Assembly (NCBI GenBank): GCA_016208105.1
Contig: JACQYS010000023.1
Location: forward strand, 1 to 64,000
Direction: 5' to 3'
Source of the DNA: Desulfovibrio sp.
GTDB lineage: Bacteria > Desulfobacterota > Desulfovibrionia > Desulfovibrionales > Desulfovibrionaceae
DNA: 64,000 bases
Shown: one piece after another, positions 52,632-62,892 of the stretch
Position numbering within the stretch: position 1 is the first letter of the stretch
How the letters are laid out: every line of letters starts with the position of its first letter
Position numbers and translations under genes: made by a program
The notes under the pieces: generated by a model
Seen by the model: only the letters and a program-made list of their open reading frames with translations
Database searches by the model: none
What the model was told of the DNA's origin: nothing

Positions 52632-54527
52632 CTAGTTGCCCTTCACCAGATTCGGATCTTCCAGTATCTGGTAGATCGGTCCGCCCTCGGCGTCGGCCGG
52701 GATGGGATTGCCGGTGGCGTAGCAGATGGTCGGTACGATGTCGGCCAGCCAGCGGGGGCGCTCGTAGCGGTAGTTACGCTTGATGTTGGGGCCCTTGAAG
52801 ATGAGCACGTTTTTAAGCTCTCCGCAGCCGGACTCGCCGGTGGGCAGGCCGTAGCCGTGCTCGGCCATGTATTCGGGCTTGAGCACGAAGACCACGTCTC
52901 CGGCCTGGGCGCCGCCCATTCCGAAGACCTTGGCGTCCTCCTTGCGGATGGCCATGAGCACCGGCCGCTCGCCGGTCTCGGGGTGTTTGTAGTCAAGCAA
53001 TGCGTCGATGATCTGGTTGCGCACGGTCTCGTATTCCTCGGGGAGCACGATGCCGCCGGGATACTTGTCCTTCATGTTTACGTACACGAACATGTAGCGC
53101 TGGGGCACGGCCTTGGATTTCGTTACGTCCAGGGTGTAGTTGAACCCTTCCGACTCCTCGTAGATTTCCCAGTAGTTCTCGGAGGTCTTGGGCTCGTAGT
53201 GGCACAGCCCGGCCTGCTTCAGCGCCTCAGCGGTGTTGAATATGGGGCCCAACGGAGTGGCTCCGTGGTCGGAGCAGAGGCATACCAGAGCCTCGTCGCC
53301 GAAGGCCTCCATCATCTTGCCAAGCAGACGGTCCTCGATCTGGTAGATCTTGCGCTCCATGTCGTAGGCGCGCTGGCGGATGACCGGGTCGGAGCTTTCC
53401 ATCTCGGAGAGCCAGCCATGGTAGAACCAGTCGATGAGGTGGGTGTGCATGTAGAAAAGGTCCCAGTCGGAATGGGCCTTGAGCACCGAAGTGGCCGCTT
53501 CGATAAGCCACTGCGAATGGAACTCGGCGACTTCGACCACGGTGTCCATGTCGATGACGCCGTGAATGAAGGCGACCAGGCCGATGTCGTTGCAGATGAC
53601 ATGCTCGGCAAGGTTGATGTGGTCGCGCGCTTCCGGCGGAGAGATGAACCCGTTGAACCCGGAAATGCCGGTGACGTAGAGCTTGAAGGATTCAGCATCG
53701 TCGGAAAGCTCGAGCAGCTTGCATCTGAAGGTGCCGTCTTCAGTCCGTTTGTCTTCCTTGATGGTGAAGGGGTGGCGCACCACGTCGCTCCATTCACCCT
53801 TGCGGATCACGAAAAATGCCTTGGAGAAATCCTTCTCAGGGCAAAGCGCGAAGACATCGTATCCGTCGTCGTCGCTCTCCCAGGTCAATCCGTACCACAC
53901 CTGGTTTTCAAGCGGGTCCATGGACTCCTTGAAGGTCATGTGCATGACTGCTTCCAGGGGTTCTTCCGCGCCCTCCGGGAGGTTCGCCCATCCCTTGGCA
54001 TCGTCGAAACGGACCTGAAGTCCCATTGGGTAGAAGTCGGTGGAGACGACGCTTTCAGATGCGAGGAATTCCTTGTGGGCGTTGCCAAGCATCTCCCAGC
54101 GCGATTCGGCCGGGGACAGTCCCTGACCCATGATCATGACGCCGTTCTGCATCTTGTTGGGCCAGGACATGGGGTAGTTCACGACAATGCTTTTCTTCCC
54201 CACCTTGTCCCACGCGTCCCAGATGGTTTCCGCGGTGAGGATTTCAGCGCCGAAGGCCTGGCAAGTCTTCTTGTGCTCGAGGCTTTCGCCTTCAAGGTAG
54301 TAGTAATAGTCTTCGACACCATGGGTTCTTGGGTATGCTCCGGTGCATATTGTTGCCCAGGATGGAGGAGTTACAGTAGGCAGATTGTATCCTTCCGACA
54401 TGTAGCTTCCACTCTCGATGAATTTTTTGAAATTCGGAAGTGCACCTTCTGCAACGAGAGCTTCCAGACGTTTCGGAATGCAGCAGTCGAATCCAACAAG
54501 TGCGGCTTTCTTTGCCAATTTAGCCAT
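52632..54527 (-). CDS. Alkaline-phosphatase-superfamily phosphodiesterase (nucleotide pyrophosphatase type)
   Basis: The 631-residue protein has the AP superfamily two-zinc site: metal ligand Asp14 (VGFDCC), nucleophile Thr53 in PTVTPPSWATICTGAYPRTH, the FYMHTHLIDWFYHG Asp/His pair and CLCSDHGATPLG. The Thr nucleophile and ICTGAYPRTHG pattern place it with phosphodiesterase/nucleotide pyrophosphatases, not with sulfatases, which need a Cys/Ser-x-Pro-x-Arg motif. No signal peptide is seen (MAKLAKKAALVGFDC), so it is probably cytoplasmic. It faces the OsmC-DsrEFH-ABC operon across an 883-bp gap. A role in splitting an imported phosphodiester such as a phosphocholine compound is possible but unproven. 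Confidence 0.85.
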   Translation of the reverse strand: MAKLAKKAALVGFDCCIPKRLEALVAEGALPNFKKFIESGSYMSEGYNLPTVTPPSWATICTGAYPRTHGVEDYYYYLEGESLEHKKTCQAFGAEILTAETIWDAWDKVGKKSIVVNYPMSWPNKMQNGVMIMGQGLSPAESRWEMLGNAHKEFLASESVVSTDFYPMGLQVRFDDAKGWANLPEGAEEPLEAVMHMTFKESMDPLENQVWYGLTWESDDDGYDVFALCPEKDFSKAFFVIRKGEWSDVVRHPFTIKEDKRTEDGTFRCKLLELSDDAESFKLYVTGISGFNGFISPPEARDHINLAEHVICNDIGLVAFIHGVIDMDTVVEVAEFHSQWLIEAATSVLKAHSDWDLFYMHTHLIDWFYHGWLSEMESSDPVIRQRAYDMERKIYQIEDRLLGKMMEAFGDEALVCLCSDHGATPLGPIFNTAEALKQAGLCHYEPKTSENYWEIYEESEGFNYTLDVTKSKAVPQRYMFVYVNMKDKYPGGIVLPEEYETVRNQIIDALLDYKHPETGERPVLMAIRKEDAKVFGMGGAQAGDVVFVLKPEYMAEHGYGLPTGESGCGELKNVLIFKGPNIKRNYRYERPRWLADIVPTICYATGNPIPADAEGGPIYQILEDPNLVKGN

Positions 54528-55410: not shown

Positions 55411-55848
55411 ATGTCCGAGACCATTACTCTTACTTTCGACAGAAGCAGCGACAGCAACTGGAAAATCCATACTGGATCAGCTGCTATGCCGGTGATCGAC
55501 TATAATAGCTCAAATCTTACGCAGGAAGAAAAGGCGAATGAGCACATGGGGGGCAGGCTCATGGTGGCTGGGGCCATAGCTTGCTACACGAACTCTTTGT
55601 GGAACGACATAAAGAGAGCTGCTGGAAAGCCTGTCAGCATGTCTGCCTCGGCAACGGTTACAAAAGAAAAGACTGATTCCATGCGGACGGCCTTCACCCA
55701 CATCGAGCTTTCTGTTGAACTCAGTGCCAATGAGTTGGATGATGCTGCCTTCGAGAGGATCCGTGACGCGCTGTATAGAGGTTCATTGGTCACGTATTCC
55801 ATGGAAGAAGGCGTTGAGTTTGACTACGATATCAATCTTGTCAAGTAG
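55411..55848 (+). CDS. OsmC-like protein with a single cysteine
   Basis: The 145-residue protein fits the OsmC/Ohr fold: N-terminal strands (ITLTFDRSSDSNWKIHTGSA), GGRLMVAGAIACYTNSLWNDIKRAAG corresponding to the central-helix cysteine motif, then a beta-rich half (VSMSASATVTKEKTDSMRTAFTHIELSV). Classical Ohr/OsmC peroxidases use two cysteines; only the central-helix one is evident here (Cys in AIACYTN), so peroxide reduction is doubtful and sulfur or thiol binding is an alternative. It is the first gene of the sigma-54 operon, with a GGAGTATTTA site before the ATG. Confidence 0.82.
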   Translation: MSETITLTFDRSSDSNWKIHTGSAAMPVIDYNSSNLTQEEKANEHMGGRLMVAGAIACYTNSLWNDIKRAAGKPVSMSASATVTKEKTDSMRTAFTHIELSVELSANELDDAAFERIRDALYRGSLVTYSMEEGVEFDYDINLVK

Positions 55849-55866
55849 TGATGCAGGAGAAGCAGA

Positions 55867-56148
55867 ATGTTATTTATCCTGAATTCTCTTGACCATTCGA
55901 AGCTGGAAGAAATTGGTGTCCTGGGTGGGAGTGAAGATAAAAGCATCCTATTGTACGGAGATGCGGTGTATTACGCGGCTCCAAGCATGGTAGGAAAATT
56001 GGCTCACCTGGAGCCAGAAGAGATGTTCGCCTGCCAGGACGCGCTTTCCGCAAGGAACATTTCTCCAGATAGTAGCGTTGAAGCAATCGATTACGAGAGA
56101 ATAGCAGAGATGATCGTTGAAGATCATGATCGTGTTGTATCTCTGTAG
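55867..56148 (+). CDS. DsrH/TusB-like sulfur relay subunit
   Basis: The 93-residue protein resembles DsrH/TusB: short N-terminal strand LFILNSLDHS, SILLYGDAVYYAAP, ALSARNISPDSSVEAIDYERI and a C-terminal acidic helix. DsrH pairs with DsrE and DsrF in a hexamer that hands sulfur to DsrC. The order here is H-E-F, not the usual E-F-H. It follows the OsmC-like gene by 18 bp. Confidence 0.8.
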   Translation: MLFILNSLDHSKLEEIGVLGGSEDKSILLYGDAVYYAAPSMVGKLAHLEPEEMFACQDALSARNISPDSSVEAIDYERIAEMIVEDHDRVVSL

Positions 56149-56154
56149 GGGAAT

Positions 56155-56556
56155 GTGATGAGTAAGACAGTGACCATGATTCTACGTTCCGGAAGCACGG
56201 AAAACGATGATGCCATATTCTGCATTAATCTCGCGGAGGCCATTCTGAAACGTGGCGATGGAGTGAATATTTTTCTCTACGGAAACGGATGCAACCTTGG
56301 CAGCAAGCCCGTTCCATATGATGGAAGATCTCCGATATCTGATGCGCTTCGTGAGCACATGGACGGCTTTGTGTTGTCCGATAAGATTGAGGCACTTGCC
56401 GCAAAAGGGGCCAAGATTGCCACGTGCCATACCACAGAGTACAGCCGTGGAATTGAAGGGTGCGCCTACCTGGACGGAGTTGAATGGGGAGACGTGGGAA
56501 ATACGTTCAACCGTTACTTGCTGAGCACGGATGTGCTTCTGTCGATTGGCCGCTAG
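56155..56556 (+). CDS. DsrE/TusD-like sulfur-carrier protein
   Basis: The 133-residue protein has the DsrE fold: VTMILRSGSTENDDAIFCINLAEAILKRGDGVNIFLYGNG, and a cysteine in KGAKIATCHTTEYSRGI at the place of the sulfur-accepting Cys of DsrE/TusD (which read xxVCxxxxxxRGI). The spacing to DsrH (6 bp) and DsrF (6 bp) is tight. The conserved cysteine supports sulfur transfer; partner and donor are unknown. Confidence 0.85.
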   Translation: MMSKTVTMILRSGSTENDDAIFCINLAEAILKRGDGVNIFLYGNGCNLGSKPVPYDGRSPISDALREHMDGFVLSDKIEALAAKGAKIATCHTTEYSRGIEGCAYLDGVEWGDVGNTFNRYLLSTDVLLSIGR

Positions 56557-56562
56557 GAGGGC

Positions 56563-56901
56563 GTGATGTTGCATTCAATGAATGTTGTGGTGCGTAAGGC
56601 CCCTGGAGAAGAGGCCGCCGTGCTCGGATTGAGGGCCGCCTGGGCGGTGATGTCCAGCGGCGGCCTTGATACGCAGTTGGTCTACATGAACGACGGTGTG
56701 TTCAACCTTCTTGGTGTCCCCGGCTATATTGGCGACCTTCTCGGCCGCTTCATTGAAGAAGGCGGCGAAGTCAGCGTGCTTCGCGACAGCATGGTGGAAT
56801 TTGGACTTACAGAGAAGGACTTCATTGAAGGGGTGAAGGTCGTTGACAAGGAAGATGTAGCGGACATGGTACAGGATGCGGACGCAACCGCTACCTTTTA
56901 G
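56563..56901 (+). CDS. DsrF/TusC-like sulfur relay subunit
   Basis: The 112-residue protein reads VVVRKAPGEEAAVLGLRAAWAVMSSGGLDTQLVYMNDGVFNLL, the DsrF/TusC pattern, followed by DFIEGVKVVDKEDVADMVQDADATATF. DsrF has no catalytic cysteine in the family either, and none is seen here. With the two preceding genes it completes a DsrEFH-like set. Confidence 0.85.
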   Translation: MMLHSMNVVVRKAPGEEAAVLGLRAAWAVMSSGGLDTQLVYMNDGVFNLLGVPGYIGDLLGRFIEEGGEVSVLRDSMVEFGLTEKDFIEGVKVVDKEDVADMVQDADATATF

Positions 56902-56945: not shown

Positions 56946-57701
56946 GTGTCCGAATGCATACAAAGAAAGACTAAAATACAGGTCAAAAACTTCACCAAGA
57001 AGTTCGGTGACTTGCTTGTTCTTGATAATATTAACTTTGACATCAAAGAGGGTGAGCTGGTTAGTATTGTCGGTCCGACTGGATGCGGGAAGACAACCTT
57101 CTTAAACTGCATGTCGAAGCTTTCCGAAACAACTGATGGCAATATCTTCATCGATGGTGAAGTAGCAAATCCGCGCAAGCACAACCTTGCATTCGTCTTC
57201 CAGGAGCCAACCGCCCTTCCGTGGCGAACAGTGTCCGAGAACGTCGCCTATGGGATGGAGATAAAGAAGTTCCCGAATAAGGAACTTCAGGAAAGGCTCG
57301 ATCATATCCTGGAGCTCGTGGGTCTTAAGGACACGGCCGACCTTTATCCCAACCAGGTGTCCGCCAGCATGATGCAGCGCATCGCCGTGGCCAGGGCTTT
57401 CGCCGTGAACCCGGACCTGCTTCTGATGGACGAACCGTACGGACAGTTGGACGTCAAGCTCCGCTTCTTCCTCGAGGACGAACTGGTGAAGCTCTGGCAG
57501 ACTCTCAAGAGCACGGTTCTTTTCGTGACCCACAACATTGAGGAAGCTGTCTACGTCGCGGAGCGCATCATTGTGCTCACGCCCAAGCCCACCAAGGTCA
57601 GGGCTGAGGTCGTGGTGGATCTTCCACGGCCGAGGAACTTCCTGGACCCCAAGTTCATCGAGATTCGCCGGCAGGTCACGGAACTTATCCGATGGTGGTA
57701 A
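56946..57701 (+). CDS. ABC transporter ATPase (NitT/TauT type) with degenerate signature motif
   Basis: The 251-residue ATPase has Walker A GPTGCGKTT, Q-loop FVFQEPTALPWRTV (typical of nitrate/taurine/sulfonate importers), Walker B LLLMDEPYGQLD and switch histidine in FVTHNIEEA. The ABC signature, normally LSGGMxQR, reads VSASMMQR, so this subunit's own signature is degenerate. A second, complementary ATPase is encoded at 59443. The start at GTG 56946 was taken from the frame (MSECIQRKTKIQVKNFTKKF), 44 bp after the DsrF gene. Confidence 0.9.
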   Translation: MSECIQRKTKIQVKNFTKKFGDLLVLDNINFDIKEGELVSIVGPTGCGKTTFLNCMSKLSETTDGNIFIDGEVANPRKHNLAFVFQEPTALPWRTVSENVAYGMEIKKFPNKELQERLDHILELVGLKDTADLYPNQVSASMMQRIAVARAFAVNPDLLLMDEPYGQLDVKLRFFLEDELVKLWQTLKSTVLFVTHNIEEAVYVAERIIVLTPKPTKVRAEVVVDLPRPRNFLDPKFIEIRRQVTELIRWW

Positions 57702-57735
57702 AGCCTGTGAATATCATGAGAAAGGAGAAGCGTTA

Positions 57736-58545
57736 ATGGCCTTTGAAACGGTCAAGTTCCGAAAGCCTCTCTTGCTCCGAATACTCCCCGTACTGAGCAT
57801 CGTCTTGTTCTTCACAGTATGGGAGGTGTCGGTGGCTCCGCCGGGCGTGAACGACTGGCGAATACCGACAACGTTGTTGGCAAGCCCTTCGACCACCCTT
57901 ACGCTCGCCATTGATAAACTGACAAATGTGAATCCCGACGGCGCAACGCTGCTCACCCATGCCTGGGTGAGCATGCAAGAGGCGTTCATCGGTTATGTCC
58001 TCGCCCTTCTCGTTGGCCTGCCGCTCGGACTGATGATGGGATGGTTCTCCGTGGTCCGGGGCATAGCGCGCCCGATTTTCGAATTGGTACGCCCCATCCC
58101 CCCGATTGCCTGGATCCCCCTCACGATCTTCTGGTTCGGGATTGGTCTTGGCGGCAAGGTGTTCATTATCTGGATCTCGGGAATCGTTCCGTGCGTCATC
58201 AACGCCTTCATGGGCGTTCGCATGACCAACCCGGTACACATCCAAATGGCCAGAACCTTCGGCGCTTCGGACTGGAAGATATTCACCAGCATCTGCGTGC
58301 CGTCGGCTCTGCCCATGGTGTTCGGAGCTCTGCAGATCGCCCTGGCGTATTGCTGGGTCACCCTGGTTGGCGCTGAGCTCTTGGCCTCTGACCAGGGGCT
58401 GGGATTCCTCATCACCATGGGGCGAAACCTCGGGCGCACGGATATCGTTATCCTGGGGATGGTCAGTGTCGGATTGGCCGGCGCGTTCATCGGCGTGATC
58501 ATAGACAGAGTCGAAGCGAAACTTCTCGCCGGCATCAGGAGATAG
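57736..58545 (+). CDS. ABC transporter permease (NitT/TauT type), first
   Basis: The 269-residue permease begins at the ATG at 57736 (AAAGGAG upstream) with LLLRILPVLSIVLFFTVWEV, and has six membrane helices. The EAA-like coupling loop reads MARTFGASDWKIFTSICVPSALP, as in SsuC/TauC. LVGLPLGLMMGWFSVVRGIARPIFELVRPIPPIAWIPL is a family landmark. It overlaps no gene and is 34 bp after the ATPase. Confidence 0.92.
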   Translation: MAFETVKFRKPLLLRILPVLSIVLFFTVWEVSVAPPGVNDWRIPTTLLASPSTTLTLAIDKLTNVNPDGATLLTHAWVSMQEAFIGYVLALLVGLPLGLMMGWFSVVRGIARPIFELVRPIPPIAWIPLTIFWFGIGLGGKVFIIWISGIVPCVINAFMGVRMTNPVHIQMARTFGASDWKIFTSICVPSALPMVFGALQIALAYCWVTLVGAELLASDQGLGFLITMGRNLGRTDIVILGMVSVGLAGAFIGVIIDRVEAKLLAGIRR

Positions 58546-58548
58546 AAC

Positions 58549-59406
58549 ATGTCCAGCACCTCCCAGAATGTCTGCAACGAAGTCATTATCTCGAACGGGG
58601 ACAAGAAGCCGTTCAGCATCGTCGCGTTTCTGCGCAACGAGTATTTCCTCAACGTGATGTCCCTGTTGGCTTTCTTTGGAATCTGGCACTTGGCCGCTTC
58701 GAGCAATGTGCTCGGGCATTCAAGCGCCTTGGCCACTCCCATGGATGTTGTCAACAAGCTCAATGATCTGTTCACCACCACATTGGCCGGACTGACCATG
58801 TGGGGGCACATCTGGGCCAGCTTAAAGCGCGTCCTTATTGGGTTCATCCTGGCGGCCCTGCTGGGCGTTCCCCTGGGCCTCATTATGGCCCTGAACCCTT
58901 ACGTGAACGCCATTGTGAAGCCAATCATAGACATCTTCAAACCCATGCCTCCCCTGGCCTGGATTTCCGTGGCCATCCTGTGGTTCGGCGTCCAGGAGAC
59001 ACCGAAGATATTCATCATCATCATCGGCTCCTTCATCCCGGCGCTCTTAAACGCCTACAACAGCGTCCTGCTCATCGATCCCGAACTCTACGACGTGGTC
59101 CGGATCATGGGCGGAAAACGGTGGGACGAGATCCGCCTCGTATGCATACCGGCGTCAATGCCGGCCATCTCCGCGGGACTGCAGATCGCCATGTCCAGCG
59201 CCTGGGGATGCGTGCTCGCGGCTGAGCTGGTGAGTTCCAAATCGGGACTCGGCTACATCATCATCCAGGGCATGAAAGTGTCGGATCCGGCCATGGTCAT
59301 AGGCGGCATGGTGGTCATCGCCATCATCGCCTGGATCATCTCACAGACACTCGAATGGATCGACCGCAAGCTCTGCCCCTGGAGACGTGACATCTCCTCC
59401 GTCTAA
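58549..59406 (+). CDS. ABC transporter permease (NitT/TauT type), second
   Basis: The 285-residue permease is a paralogue of the preceding one: LGVPLGLIMALNPYVNAIVK, PMPPLAWISVAILWFG, and coupling loop VRIMGGKRWDEIRLVCIPASMP. It begins three bases after the first permease gene. The two probably form a heterodimeric channel matched by the two ATPases. The long N-terminus (about 45 residues) before the first helix is cytoplasmic. Confidence 0.92.
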   Translation: MSSTSQNVCNEVIISNGDKKPFSIVAFLRNEYFLNVMSLLAFFGIWHLAASSNVLGHSSALATPMDVVNKLNDLFTTTLAGLTMWGHIWASLKRVLIGFILAALLGVPLGLIMALNPYVNAIVKPIIDIFKPMPPLAWISVAILWFGVQETPKIFIIIIGSFIPALLNAYNSVLLIDPELYDVVRIMGGKRWDEIRLVCIPASMPAISAGLQIAMSSAWGCVLAAELVSSKSGLGYIIIQGMKVSDPAMVIGGMVVIAIIAWIISQTLEWIDRKLCPWRRDISSV

Positions 59407-59442
59407 GGGGATGCAAAGTCACATCGAGAACACTCTACAATC

Positions 59443-60237
59443 ATGAAGGACGTCACTGTGAATACTCATGATGCAAAAGCACCAGTCAAGATTTCATGCA
59501 AGAACTTGACTATGACGTTCATACAGAAGGGAACGCACATCGTTCCAGTCTTTAAAGACGTATCTGTCGATGTGTATGATCAGGAGCTGCTTGTCATACT
59601 TGGGCCTGGACAGTGTGGGAAAACGACTCTTCTGAGAATTATCGCCGGCCTGGAAACTCCCACAGAGGGTTCAGTCTATTTGGACGGAGCCAAGGTAACA
59701 GGGGCAGGCCCTGACAGAGGGCTCGTTTTCCAGAGCTACATGCTTTTCCCCTGGCAAACCGTTGAAAAGAACGTTGCCGTGGGGCTGGAAATGAACGGCC
59801 ATACTGCGGATGAAGTGAAGGAAAAGGTCGCACACTACATCAAGCTCGTTGGTCTGGGCGGCTTTGAGAAGTTCTATCCCCACCAGCTCTCCGGTGGCAT
59901 GAAGCAGAGGGTCGGAATCGCCAGGGCGTTCTCCACGAGCCCCAAGGTCATGCTCATGGACGAACCCTTCGGGCAGCTCGACGCCCAAACCCGGATATTC
60001 ATGGAAAAGGAAACCGAGCGCATCTGGCTGCAAGAGAAGCGGACCATGGTTTTCGTCACCAACAACATTGATGAAGCTCTCATCTTAGGCGACCGGATCG
60101 TCACCATGGAAGGGAAACTGCCCGGCAGGGTCAAGTCTTCCTACGAGGTGAACCTGCCCCGGCCAAGGGATCCGATGGACATCGAATTCCTCAGGCTGCG
60201 CCAGACCATAACCGACGAGCAAGAGCTGACGTTGTAG
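59443..60237 (+). CDS. ABC transporter ATPase (NitT/TauT type) with altered switch histidine
   Basis: The 264-residue ATPase has Walker A GPGQCGKTT, Q-loop LVFQSYMLFPWQTV, a normal signature LSGGMKQR and Walker B VMLMDEPFGQLD. The H-loop, normally a histidine in xTHNxxEA, reads FVTNNIDEA, so the switch His is Asn. It therefore complements the ATPase at 56946. Together they would give one complete and one defective ATP site. The start was taken at 59443 (MKDVTVNTHD); the core homology begins about residue 20. Confidence 0.9.
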   Translation: MKDVTVNTHDAKAPVKISCKNLTMTFIQKGTHIVPVFKDVSVDVYDQELLVILGPGQCGKTTLLRIIAGLETPTEGSVYLDGAKVTGAGPDRGLVFQSYMLFPWQTVEKNVAVGLEMNGHTADEVKEKVAHYIKLVGLGGFEKFYPHQLSGGMKQRVGIARAFSTSPKVMLMDEPFGQLDAQTRIFMEKETERIWLQEKRTMVFVTNNIDEALILGDRIVTMEGKLPGRVKSSYEVNLPRPRDPMDIEFLRLRQTITDEQELTL

Positions 60238-60300: not shown

Positions 60301-61377
60301 ATGAAGAAGATGTTGGTGTTCGCGATGGCGTTTATGTTCGTACTCTCGCTAGCTGCAGGCGCGATGGCGCAGAAGCCTTTGGTCAAGGTACCCACATGCT
60401 GGATGGATTCCTCCGAAGCCTTCAACATCTGGTATGCCAAGAAGAAGGGCTGGGACAAGGAAGAAGGGCTTGATATCGAGATGATTTCCTTCGGCAGCGG
60501 CCCGGCCCAGATGGAAGCCCTTCCCGCCAAACAGTGGGTTCTGGGCGGCACTGGCGTTGGCGGTACGCTCATCGGCGGCATGCGCTACAACATCTACCTG
60601 GTCGGCGGCGCCAATGCCGAAGACGACGTGAACGCTTTCTACGTCCGCAAGGACAGCCCGATCCTTAAGAAGAAGGGCTACAACCCCGAATACCCCGATG
60701 TTTATGGTACGCCTGAGACGGTCAAGGGAAGCACCATTCTGCTGACCTCCCAGACCACCGTGCACTACATCATCGGCAAGTGGCTCGAGATCCTTGGCCT
60801 CAAGGAGAGCGACGTCAAGATCACCAACATGGAAATGCCTTCCATCGTGGCCGCCTTTGAAAAGGGCATCGGCGACGTGGCTTCCGTGTGGGCGCCCGTC
60901 ACCTTCCAGGCCGAATCCCGTGGCTGGGTGAAGGCCGGTTCCACCGGTACCACCAAAGCCTACACCGCCACCGTCCTGGTCGGCGACAAGGAGTGGTGCG
61001 ACAAGAACCCCGAAACCGCCGCCAAGTTCCTGCGCGTGTACTACCGCGTCTCCCAGCTCCTGAAGGCCCAGGGTTCCTCCCCTGAGATGGTCAAGTCCTA
61101 TCAGGACTTCATGAACGACTTCTGCGGCACCAAGATGAGCGCCGATGATGCCAAGAAGGACCTGGACGTGCATCCTCGCTGGACCCTGGCCGAAGCGACC
61201 AAGTTGAACGACGCCGCCAAGGGCGAGGCTGAGATGACCCGCTGGCAGAACCAAGCCGCCGAGTTCTTCACCCGCATGGGGCGCTTCTCTCCTGCCGAGC
61301 TTGAGAAGTTCAAGAAGGCCGGGATCGTCACCGACAAGTTCCTGAAGATCGCAGGGCAGCAGCCCCTCCCGCAATAA
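60301..61377 (+). CDS. Periplasmic substrate-binding protein (NMT1/SsuA/TauA type)
   Basis: The 358-residue protein has a signal peptide (MKKMLVFAMAFMFVLSLAAG ending AMA, cleavage near residue 23). The mature part has the SsuA/TauA/ThiY fold: FNIWYAKKKGWDKEEGLDIEMISFGSGPAQ, a hinge near VYGTPETVKGSTILLTSQTT, and VAAFEKGIGDVASVWAPV. The ligand cannot be read from sequence. Context points to a small organosulfur, quaternary-amine or phosphodiester compound. It is preceded by GAGGGAGG. Confidence 0.92.
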   Translation: MKKMLVFAMAFMFVLSLAAGAMAQKPLVKVPTCWMDSSEAFNIWYAKKKGWDKEEGLDIEMISFGSGPAQMEALPAKQWVLGGTGVGGTLIGGMRYNIYLVGGANAEDDVNAFYVRKDSPILKKKGYNPEYPDVYGTPETVKGSTILLTSQTTVHYIIGKWLEILGLKESDVKITNMEMPSIVAAFEKGIGDVASVWAPVTFQAESRGWVKAGSTGTTKAYTATVLVGDKEWCDKNPETAAKFLRVYYRVSQLLKAQGSSPEMVKSYQDFMNDFCGTKMSADDAKKDLDVHPRWTLAEATKLNDAAKGEAEMTRWQNQAAEFFTRMGRFSPAELEKFKKAGIVTDKFLKIAGQQPLPQ

Positions 61378-61440: not shown

Positions 61441-62892
61441 ATGAGGTTAATTGGCCATCTGGTCTTGGCCGCAGCAATGTTTCTCGGCTGCCTGGCATCA
61501 GCCGAAGCTGCGACTGAAGTCAAAATGACCGGCGACGTTCGCGTCCATGCGAACTTCTGGTCAAAGATGCAGTACACTGGCTGGAACTACAACGGTTCAC
61601 AAACCGCTGACGCGATGACCATTTACGAGCGTTTTCGCGTCCGCACGGACTTCATCGCCAACGAAAGCCTGAAGTTCCGCCTTGGTATCAAGATCGGCGA
61701 TGTGCCCTGGGGTTCCGGTACCTTCACCGTGGACAACCCGGCCGTATCCATTCAGGTGTACCAGGCCTTCATGCAGTTCAAATGGCCTGGCTCTGATGTC
61801 GAATTCACCGTGGGCATGCAGGACATGGACCTGCCCCTGTCGGCCGATTGGCTTGATGCGAACCCCGTGCTCGGCGGCTGCCGCGCTGCGGCGGCCATCG
61901 TGAAAGTCCCGGTGGTTGACCAGTTCAAGATCATCGCCGGATTCACCCGGTTGGTCGATTCCAACAAGGATTTCGATCCCACCACCACCCAGAAGTCCGA
62001 CGAATTCGACGGCTACTTCATGGCGCTGCCCATCACCCTTGAAGGCTTCAAGGCCACCCCGTGGGGCATGATCTCCGTGGCTGGCCGCGACACCGCCTAC
62101 AACAAAGTGTGGGTTGGCAACGGCGGCTACTCCAACGAGACCCTGGCCAACAACCTGTTGGCGGCCGGCTCGATGGGTACGTCCACCTCGTTCAAGAACA
62201 ATCAGAACGTCTACTGGTGGGTCGGCTCGACCTTCGCGGTGACCGCGCTTGATCCCTTCAAGTTCTACGCGGACATCATGTACGGTTCCGGCAACGACAA
62301 CGACCGCTCGCGCAACAAGCGCGCCGGTCTCTTCTTCGATGTGGCGGCCGAGTACACCGGGTTTGACATGGTCACTCCCCAGCTGACCTTCTGGTACTCC
62401 ACTGGTGAGGACAGCTCCATCTCCAACGGCTCTGAGCGCATGCCCGTGGTCGTCAACTACTGGAGCCCGAGCAACTCGTTCCTGTTCGACGGCGACCAGG
62501 CTTTCGCCAACGGATTCACCAACATCAACGCTGTCGGCTCCTGGGGTTTTGTCGCCGCTTTGGACAAGATCTCCTTCGTGCAGGACCTCACCCACCGTTT
62601 GACCTTCAGCTACGCCCGCGGCACCAACAGCCCCGCTGGCCTGCGCAAGGCCAACGCCCTGCAGGGAACCGGCAACTACGTGCAGATCGGACGTGACCTG
62701 ACTGACAAAGAGTCCGTGTTGGCCGTCAACCTGGACACCAAGTACAACATCTACCAGAACTTGGCAGCCATCGTGGAGACCGGTTGGTCCCACGGCGATT
62801 TCCAGACCTCCGTCTGGGGTCATCGCATGGCGAATGCCACCCGTGGCGGCGACGTCTGGAAGGTGGCCTTCGGTCTGCAGTATAAGTTCTAG
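61441..62892 (+). CDS. Outer-membrane porin (Desulfovibrio type)
   Basis: The 483-residue protein has a signal peptide (LIGHLVLAAAMFLGCLASAEA) and a mature part of alternating strands (VKMTGDVRVHANFWSKMQYTGW; FRVRTDFIANESLKFRLGIK) ending in aromatic VWKVAFGLQYKF, the C-terminal Phe signal for outer-membrane insertion. It resembles the abundant Desulfovibrio porins. As the last gene of the operon it should carry the ABC importer's substrate across the outer membrane. An AGGAGGAGG ribosome site precedes the ATG. Confidence 0.92.
   Translation: MRLIGHLVLAAAMFLGCLASAEAATEVKMTGDVRVHANFWSKMQYTGWNYNGSQTADAMTIYERFRVRTDFIANESLKFRLGIKIGDVPWGSGTFTVDNPAVSIQVYQAFMQFKWPGSDVEFTVGMQDMDLPLSADWLDANPVLGGCRAAAAIVKVPVVDQFKIIAGFTRLVDSNKDFDPTTTQKSDEFDGYFMALPITLEGFKATPWGMISVAGRDTAYNKVWVGNGGYSNETLANNLLAAGSMGTSTSFKNNQNVYWWVGSTFAVTALDPFKFYADIMYGSGNDNDRSRNKRAGLFFDVAAEYTGFDMVTPQLTFWYSTGEDSSISNGSERMPVVVNYWSPSNSFLFDGDQAFANGFTNINAVGSWGFVAALDKISFVQDLTHRLTFSYARGTNSPAGLRKANALQGTGNYVQIGRDLTDKESVLAVNLDTKYNIYQNLAAIVETGWSHGDFQTSVWGHRMANATRGGDVWKVAFGLQYKF

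Follow-up and report, generated by a model that had tools for sequence, protein, structure and literature searches.

ATP-binding cassette (ABC) transporters form composite ATP sites in trans, from the Walker side of one nucleotide-binding domain (NBD) and the signature of the other, as set out in available passages of PMC7756269. Degenerate ATP sites have been studied mostly in exporters, and the literature that we found is nearly all on exporters, CFTR-type proteins, and ABCE1. In the heterodimeric exporters TAP, TM287/288, and BmrCD, one consensus composite site is combined with one degenerate site, for which excerpts of PMC7544095 state loss of the catalytic Glu as the hallmark. Degenerate sites have also been published for the importer ATPases RbsA and NupO of Bacillus subtilis (available passages of PMC11466899). 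Here, we describe an importer locus in a 64,000-nt stretch of Desulfovibrio sp. DNA (assembly GCA_016208105.1, contig JACQYS010000023.1, positions 1–64,000 of the forward strand; hereafter designated the window), in which two ATPases, ABC1 and ABC2 (representing A1- and A2-type ATPases, respectively), depart from the consensus in complementary motifs.

The window pair resembles the exporters in that a consensus composite site would stand beside a degenerate one, but its family keeps the catalytic Glu (DEP in 81 of 81 A2 sequences). With RbsA and NupO it shares an importer function and one degenerate site including an altered signature, whereas those proteins are type II importers with fused NBDs and a second Walker A lacking Lys, in contrast to the separate genes and the retained Lys and Glu found here. 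The cyanobacterial bicarbonate and nitrate importers CmpBCD and NrtBCD, which likewise have two different ATPase chains, provided the closest solved folds in a fold search run with the A2 model and the nearest solved sequences to ABC2 by phmmer. However, CmpC (chains of 665–690 residues) and CmpD both carry SGGM and the switch His, the comparison covering the Cmp motifs. The best curated families included SaoA (228.1 and 229.4 bits; cut-off, 360) and TauB (181.3 and 202.2; cut-off, 357). Membership in the SaoA family (NF040729) was rejected on that cut-off, and a literature search on SaoA found no paper. The E. coli tau system has a single ATPase gene, encoding the canonical TauB, in contrast to the two asymmetric ATPases of the window.

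Motifs of the two window ATPases

All five proteins of the cluster exceeded the Pfam cut-offs, bringing together ABC ATPases, BPD_transp_1 permeases, and an NMT1-type binding protein in what we take to be an importer cluster of the sulfonate/nitrate/taurine type (NitT/TauT). The genes lie on the plus strand in the order ABC1, P1, P2, ABC2, and binding protein, as follows.

56946–57701, plus strand: ABC1, A1-type ATPase, 251 aa; normal Walker A/B, Q-loop, and switch His, altered signature, RWW at the end
57072–57098, plus strand: ABC1 Walker A, GPTGCGKTT
57357–57380, plus strand: ABC1 altered signature, VSASMMQR (SGG in controls)
57531–57533, plus strand: ABC1 switch His196, in FVTHNIEE
57736–58545, plus strand: permease P1 (BPD_transp_1), starting with the ATG at 57736
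58549–59406, plus strand: permease P2 (BPD_transp_1), different from P1 (32% identity)
59443–60237, plus strand: ABC2, A2-type ATPase, 264 aa; normal signature, Asn for the switch His, altered Walker A
59602–59628, plus strand: ABC2 Walker A, GPGQCGKTT, with GQ instead of SG as residues 3 and 4
59887–59910, plus strand: ABC2 normal signature, LSGGMKQR
60061–60063, plus strand: ABC2 Asn207 at the switch-His position, in FVTNNIDE
60301–61377, plus strand: substrate-binding protein, NMT1-like over the Pfam cut-off; best NCBIfam match, the SsuA family, under its cut-off

The listed open reading frame (ORF) of P1 begins at 57538, within ABC1, and P1 was analysed from 57733. ABC1 and ABC2 share 39% identity over 243 columns and are thus two non-identical NBDs. 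Both contain DEP, with the Walker-B catalytic Glu intact. A preliminary description of this DNA had read ABC1 as combining a ruined signature with a normal switch His, and ABC2 as combining a normal signature with Asn at the switch; both motif readings are right. To these are added two points, that the Walker A of ABC2 is also unusual and that neither catalytic Glu has been lost. Single-chain prediction gave an ordinary NBD fold for both, the signature lying at a helix start in each (pLDDT, 91.6 for A1 and 88.7 for A2).

Conservation of the split among relatives

Related pairs were collected mainly by a search with the permease P1, which is blind to the ATPase motifs and so avoids motif-based choice, taking the best 80 of 569 confirmed relatives. 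With 7 earlier loci and 8 found by place after profile matches (those outside the P1 search came from a binding-protein search and ATPase or permease profile matches), 95 loci were obtained, giving 81 distinct complete pairs, 3 duplicates that were left out, and 11 incomplete loci. The A1 and A2 labels were assigned with profiles that include the motif columns. Since the ATPase and permease profile searches kept the best 6 candidates per genome (5 for lineage II, described below), presence counts are lower bounds.

The same split was found in all 81 pairs: the His-bearing ATPase has an S-x-S signature, and its partner has SGG with Asn or Ser at the switch. Thus, the A1 signature was S-A-S in 55, S-V-S in 16, S-S-S in 8, and S-I-S and S-T-S in one each, always with the switch His, whereas A2 had S-G-G throughout, with Asn at the switch in 78 and Ser in 3. 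The Walker A of A2 was GPGx[CS]GK in 80 pairs and GAGKAGK in one, so that G followed by a non-Gly residue (Q, R, H, L, Y, K, or E) replaces the usual S-G in every case. The DEP Glu was kept in both subunits of all pairs, and the A1 and A2 genes always lay on one strand of one locus. No exception to the split was found among the complete pairs, and those incomplete loci in which a signature or switch can be read conform to it, L096 and L107 showing no ATPase. By the trans rule, the deviations are gathered in one composite site, made of the A2 Walker side and the A1 signature, in all 81 pairs.

The feature is therefore real and strictly conserved in the pairs read. The preliminary description had proposed an alignment of relatives to see whether both changes always co-occur, and had named intact motifs in relatives as the sign of sequencing error or local decay; in every complete pair read, the two changes co-occur, in different subunits. 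Because all pairs share the split, the asymmetry is not decay or error, and a complete ATP site combined with an altered one looks, from these sequences, like a working design.

By phylum label, the pairs were from Bacillota (30), Thermodesulfobacteriota (27), Myxococcota (6), Chloroflexota (2), Planctomycetota (2), and Actinomycetota (1), with 13 unlabelled; the rarer labels are to be treated with caution, since metagenome bins under outdated names make up many of the rows. The binding-protein search (E ≤ 1e-30) gave matches in 4 of 59 genomes (G004, G017, G034, and the window's own, G000), and the own genome has two more such systems, on contigs C20 and C8. Seven aligned pairs read [VLI]SASM with His for A1 and LSGGM with Asn for A2. 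Two irregular A1 sequences were counted: L200 reads YGQLTV at the D-loop, and in L059 (5977–6733, a metagenome bin) the gene is in two overlapping ORFs, perhaps through an assembly error, its Walker A reading being an artefact. As to gene order, A1 came first with A2 non-adjacent in 47 pairs, and A2 lay directly 5' of A1 in 34. The A1 C-terminus was [RKQW]WW in 77 of the 81 pairs (57690–57701 in the window), the other four differing, some by a cut or broken ORF, and that of A2 was mostly L-x-L or similar.

All 41 control ATPases were canonical, with SGG, the switch His, and the SG of Walker A. They comprise 26 distinct outside relatives, drawn from 32 loci that permease or ATPase searches had given, and 15 further ATPases of the own genome, that is, 23 profile matches (E ≤ 1e-30) less 6 of the window family and 2 of lineage II. 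In total, 38 of the 85 Pfam ABC_tran matches in the own genome were read for motifs (the 23 plus 15 others), and the 15 controls do not stand for the whole genome, since its LivG/LivF proteins depart from the consensus, as described below. Both subunits were canonical in pairs named Opp-type by look (L249 of the own genome and those in L031 and L032), as in CmpC and CmpD; hence, the possession of two ATPases alone does not bring the asymmetry.

The same arrangement in other importer lineages

The asymmetry is not confined to the window family. In both genomes of one group of relatives (G084 and G447), the one related permease gene found accompanies two ATPases, the first reading [LI]SAGM and keeping the His, the second reading ISGGM with Asn. 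The Walker A of each is GPTGCGK, and this state looks, by its motifs, less advanced. In a second lineage (lineage II), all 13 pairs combine a subunit Aa with [ILV]SSGM and His and a subunit Ab with LSGGM and Ser (12) or Ala (1). These loci are in the own genome (L191, C8:229859–232441) and 12 others, 5 of the 13 genomes belonging to one genus. Two permeases of the Pa/Pb kind accompany 11 of the 13 (in L238, both are nearest Pa); L243 has one weak permease match, and L236, which stops at a contig end, has none. A neighbour scan of the own-genome locus (G000:C8:222000–241000) placed it near genes for EutJ-like (microcompartment-type) and phosphotransacetylase proteins, and near a glycyl radical enzyme whose score under the (2S)-3-sulfopropanediol dehydratase model is 1588.8 (cut-off, 1000).

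Moreover, all five LivG/LivF systems read in the own genome combine L[PA]YG and His with LSGGE and Gln. Four are adjacent pairs (L245–L248), and the pairing of L250 with L251, some kilobases apart, is assumed; L245 and L250/L251 matched LivF/LivG best, below the equivalog cut-offs, and L246–L248 were named by likeness. The same trans arrangement occurs in LivG (LAYG, IEHD) and LivF (MSGGE, VEQN) of E. coli K-12. LivG/LivF thus resemble the window pair in having two ATPase genes, one with an altered signature and His and the other with SGGE and Gln, in trans, but differ in the residues concerned and in a Walker A without the A2-type change. They are also distant, scoring 68–96 bits against the window-family profile, where complete members exceed 300. 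The LivF and LivG models (NF008626 and NF008449) were not among the best 25 of 184 families for ABC1 or the best 25 of 182 for ABC2.

In all three groups, both changes meet in one site, because the His is present in the subunit whose signature is altered and missing from the other. The preliminary description had called such asymmetry rare in bacterial importers, which does not hold, given lineage II, the one-permease relatives, LivG/LivF, and the degenerate sites reported for RbsA and NupO in the available passages of PMC11466899; it had also counted the two different permeases in favour of a heterodimer, a feature that is not required, since G084 and G447 pair two such ATPases with the one related permease found. 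The recurrence in other importer lineages is new beyond that description. Judged by title, start of abstract, or word counts, no paper found deals with ATP-site asymmetry in importers of the sulfonate/nitrate type, in a search with subscription papers and preprints mostly outside it, and none on LivFG among the matches listed; both results say little on novelty.

Trees were built without the motif columns, with A1p and A2p denoting the ATPases of G084 and G447, and Ba and Bb the altered-signature and His-less ATPases of lineage II; both clades, A1 and A2, were recovered in two such trees, one with 18 pairs and one with 15. In the latter, which used 10 of the 13 lineage II pairs, A1 (100/96), A2 (99/99), Ba (100/98), and Bb (99/97) each formed one side of a branch, as did Ba and Bb together (100/99), and A2p grouped with A1 and A1p. 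A single origin of the altered-signature subunits (A1, A1p, and Ba as one clade) was rejected by the AU test (p 4.2e-5), as was that of the His-less subunits (A2 and Bb; p 0.0115). A clade of A1, A2, A1p, and A2p was not rejected (p 0.779); the free search had missed it, since the tree constrained to it was 12.5 log units better. A clade of A2 and A2p gave p 0.092 in a quick tree (57 rows) and 0.0142 in a careful tree (69 rows), so that the G084/G447 pair probably, though not certainly, arose separately. All these p-values are weakened because the groups were named after the tree had been seen. At least two origins within the window ATPase group are nevertheless well supported by these trees, and three are likely; LivG/LivF, judged by distance and outside the tree, are a further, distant case.

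Proposed roles of the two ATP sites and the possible substrate

We suggest, with a probability of roughly 0.8, that the locus encodes a two-permease, two-ATPase importer in which A1 and A2 would be specialised as an obligate heterodimer of NBDs, one site hydrolysing ATP and the other mainly holding it. Site 1, formed by the Walker A/B and His of A1 and the signature of A2, would be complete and hydrolyse ATP in each cycle. Site 2, formed by the Walker A/B of A2 (GPGx, with Asn or Ser at the switch) and the SAS-like signature of A1, would be altered on both halves. Because its contacts are altered on both halves while Lys and Glu are kept, it most likely binds ATP, holds the dimer, and hydrolyses slowly or never.

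The departure from consensus could in itself be put down to local decay or sequencing error in the own genome, an explanation with virtually no chance of being correct, as it was ruled out by the same split in all 81 pairs, including the own paralogues on C20 and C8. Alternatively, A1 and A2 might act as homodimers, serving different permeases or other transporters, as the non-adjacent genes of 47 systems would allow; however, the two genes share one strand of one locus in every system, a homodimer would carry either two altered signatures (A1) or no switch His at all (A2), and the A1 and A2 distances correlate loosely (r 0.63, broken rows included). We regard homodimers as very improbable. 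A less remote, though still unlikely, alternative is that both composite sites hydrolyse ATP, the SAS-like signature and Asn switch being a co-adapted alternative chemistry in site 2 and not a loss. The altered signature is conserved as S-x-S without drift, A2 keeps the Walker-A Lys and Walker-B Glu in all pairs, and, according to the available passages of PMC7756269, ABCC1 still transports at a wild-type-like level when the switch His of its second site (NBS2) is replaced by Asn or Gln. On the other hand, site 2 is altered in three places together (Walker A, switch, and partner signature), and the switch of lineage II is Ser or Ala. The Ala side chain is unable to make the switch-His contact.

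Several points weigh against the one-live, one-held reading that we prefer. In contrast to the usual degenerate exporter site, neither subunit has lost the catalytic Glu, so that site 2 may still hydrolyse; the ABCC1 result points the same way, and the structure predictions are of single chains only. As to substrate, neighbouring genes support sulfonates at 21 of 80 loci, a minority, and a search for 12 such genes found none alongside the window copy (L028). Of the earlier claim that site 1 is complete and site 2 broken, the part that stands is the placement of the changes, in separate subunits that would bring them together in one site; given the retained Glu and the ABCC1 substitutions, "broken" may be too strong.

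Judging from neighbouring genes, the window ATPase family probably imports organosulfonates. Family neighbours scored above the NCBIfam cut-offs for alanine dehydrogenase (Ald; 548.8, cut-off 391.85) and sulfoacetaldehyde acetyltransferase (Xsc; 848.2, cut-off 676.4), and a class III aminotransferase neighbour, which we would call Tpa-like, matched the PRK07678 model (543.8, cut-off 488), which is not taurine-specific. Among the 80 P1 loci, the aminotransferase was found at no fewer than 18, Ald at 6, Xsc at 7, and split transketolase halves at 8, these counts, like the 21 loci with any of the first three, being lower bounds because many loci are cut short. The own paralogue on C20 adjoins Tpa-like (57%) and Ald (53%) genes. 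The six PDB matches of the binding-protein profile, namely, taurine-transport, sulfonate-transport (two), nitrate-transport, putative exported, and THI5 proteins, also bear on the likely import of sulfonates. In the literature, a sulfoquinovose ABC importer has been predicted in Faecalicatena (PMC11659671, the available passages of which are silent on its ATP sites), and five whole-word transport terms had 0 occurrences in a Bilophila paper (PMC8667426).

The window cluster is flanked by the following features.

52632–54527, minus strand: type I phosphodiesterase family protein, 631 aa; over the Pfam cut-off, below both matched NCBIfam cut-offs
55411–56901, plus strand: four small genes upstream of ABC1, OsmC-like, DsrE-like, DsrH/TusB-like, and DsrE/TusC-like
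61441–62892, plus strand: putative porin-like ORF (by look), 3' of the binding protein

Of the four small proteins, the OsmC-like and DsrE-like ones fell just below the Pfam cut-offs and the other two above. When ORFs were compared coarsely, none of these genes was found at the other loci. Of the 297 phylum genomes searched, the 296 besides the own one contained no relative of the DsrE protein at E ≤ 1e-12; the four genes therefore give no clue to the substrate, and a sulfur-handling role for them would be a guess.

Collectively, the window ATPases belong to an importer family that has the asymmetry of the exporters with the catalytic Glu intact, together with graded relatives, from SGG/His through SAG/Asn to SAS/Asn with an altered Walker A. 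Tentatively, and at rather long odds, one live and one held ATP site may be a favoured end state for importers that gain two ATPase genes, reached separately in the window family, lineage II, and LivG/LivF (the last judged by distance, without a tree), in every instance by two changes that meet in trans within a single site; in energy-poor, sulfonate-using anaerobes, the ATP spent per import cycle may thereby be halved. With a conserved family, graded relatives, and repeats in other lineages, a standing question becomes testable by comparison, namely, how many ATP are used per import cycle and what purpose a non-hydrolysing site serves, and LivFG of E. coli K-12, a common laboratory strain, is open to the same test.

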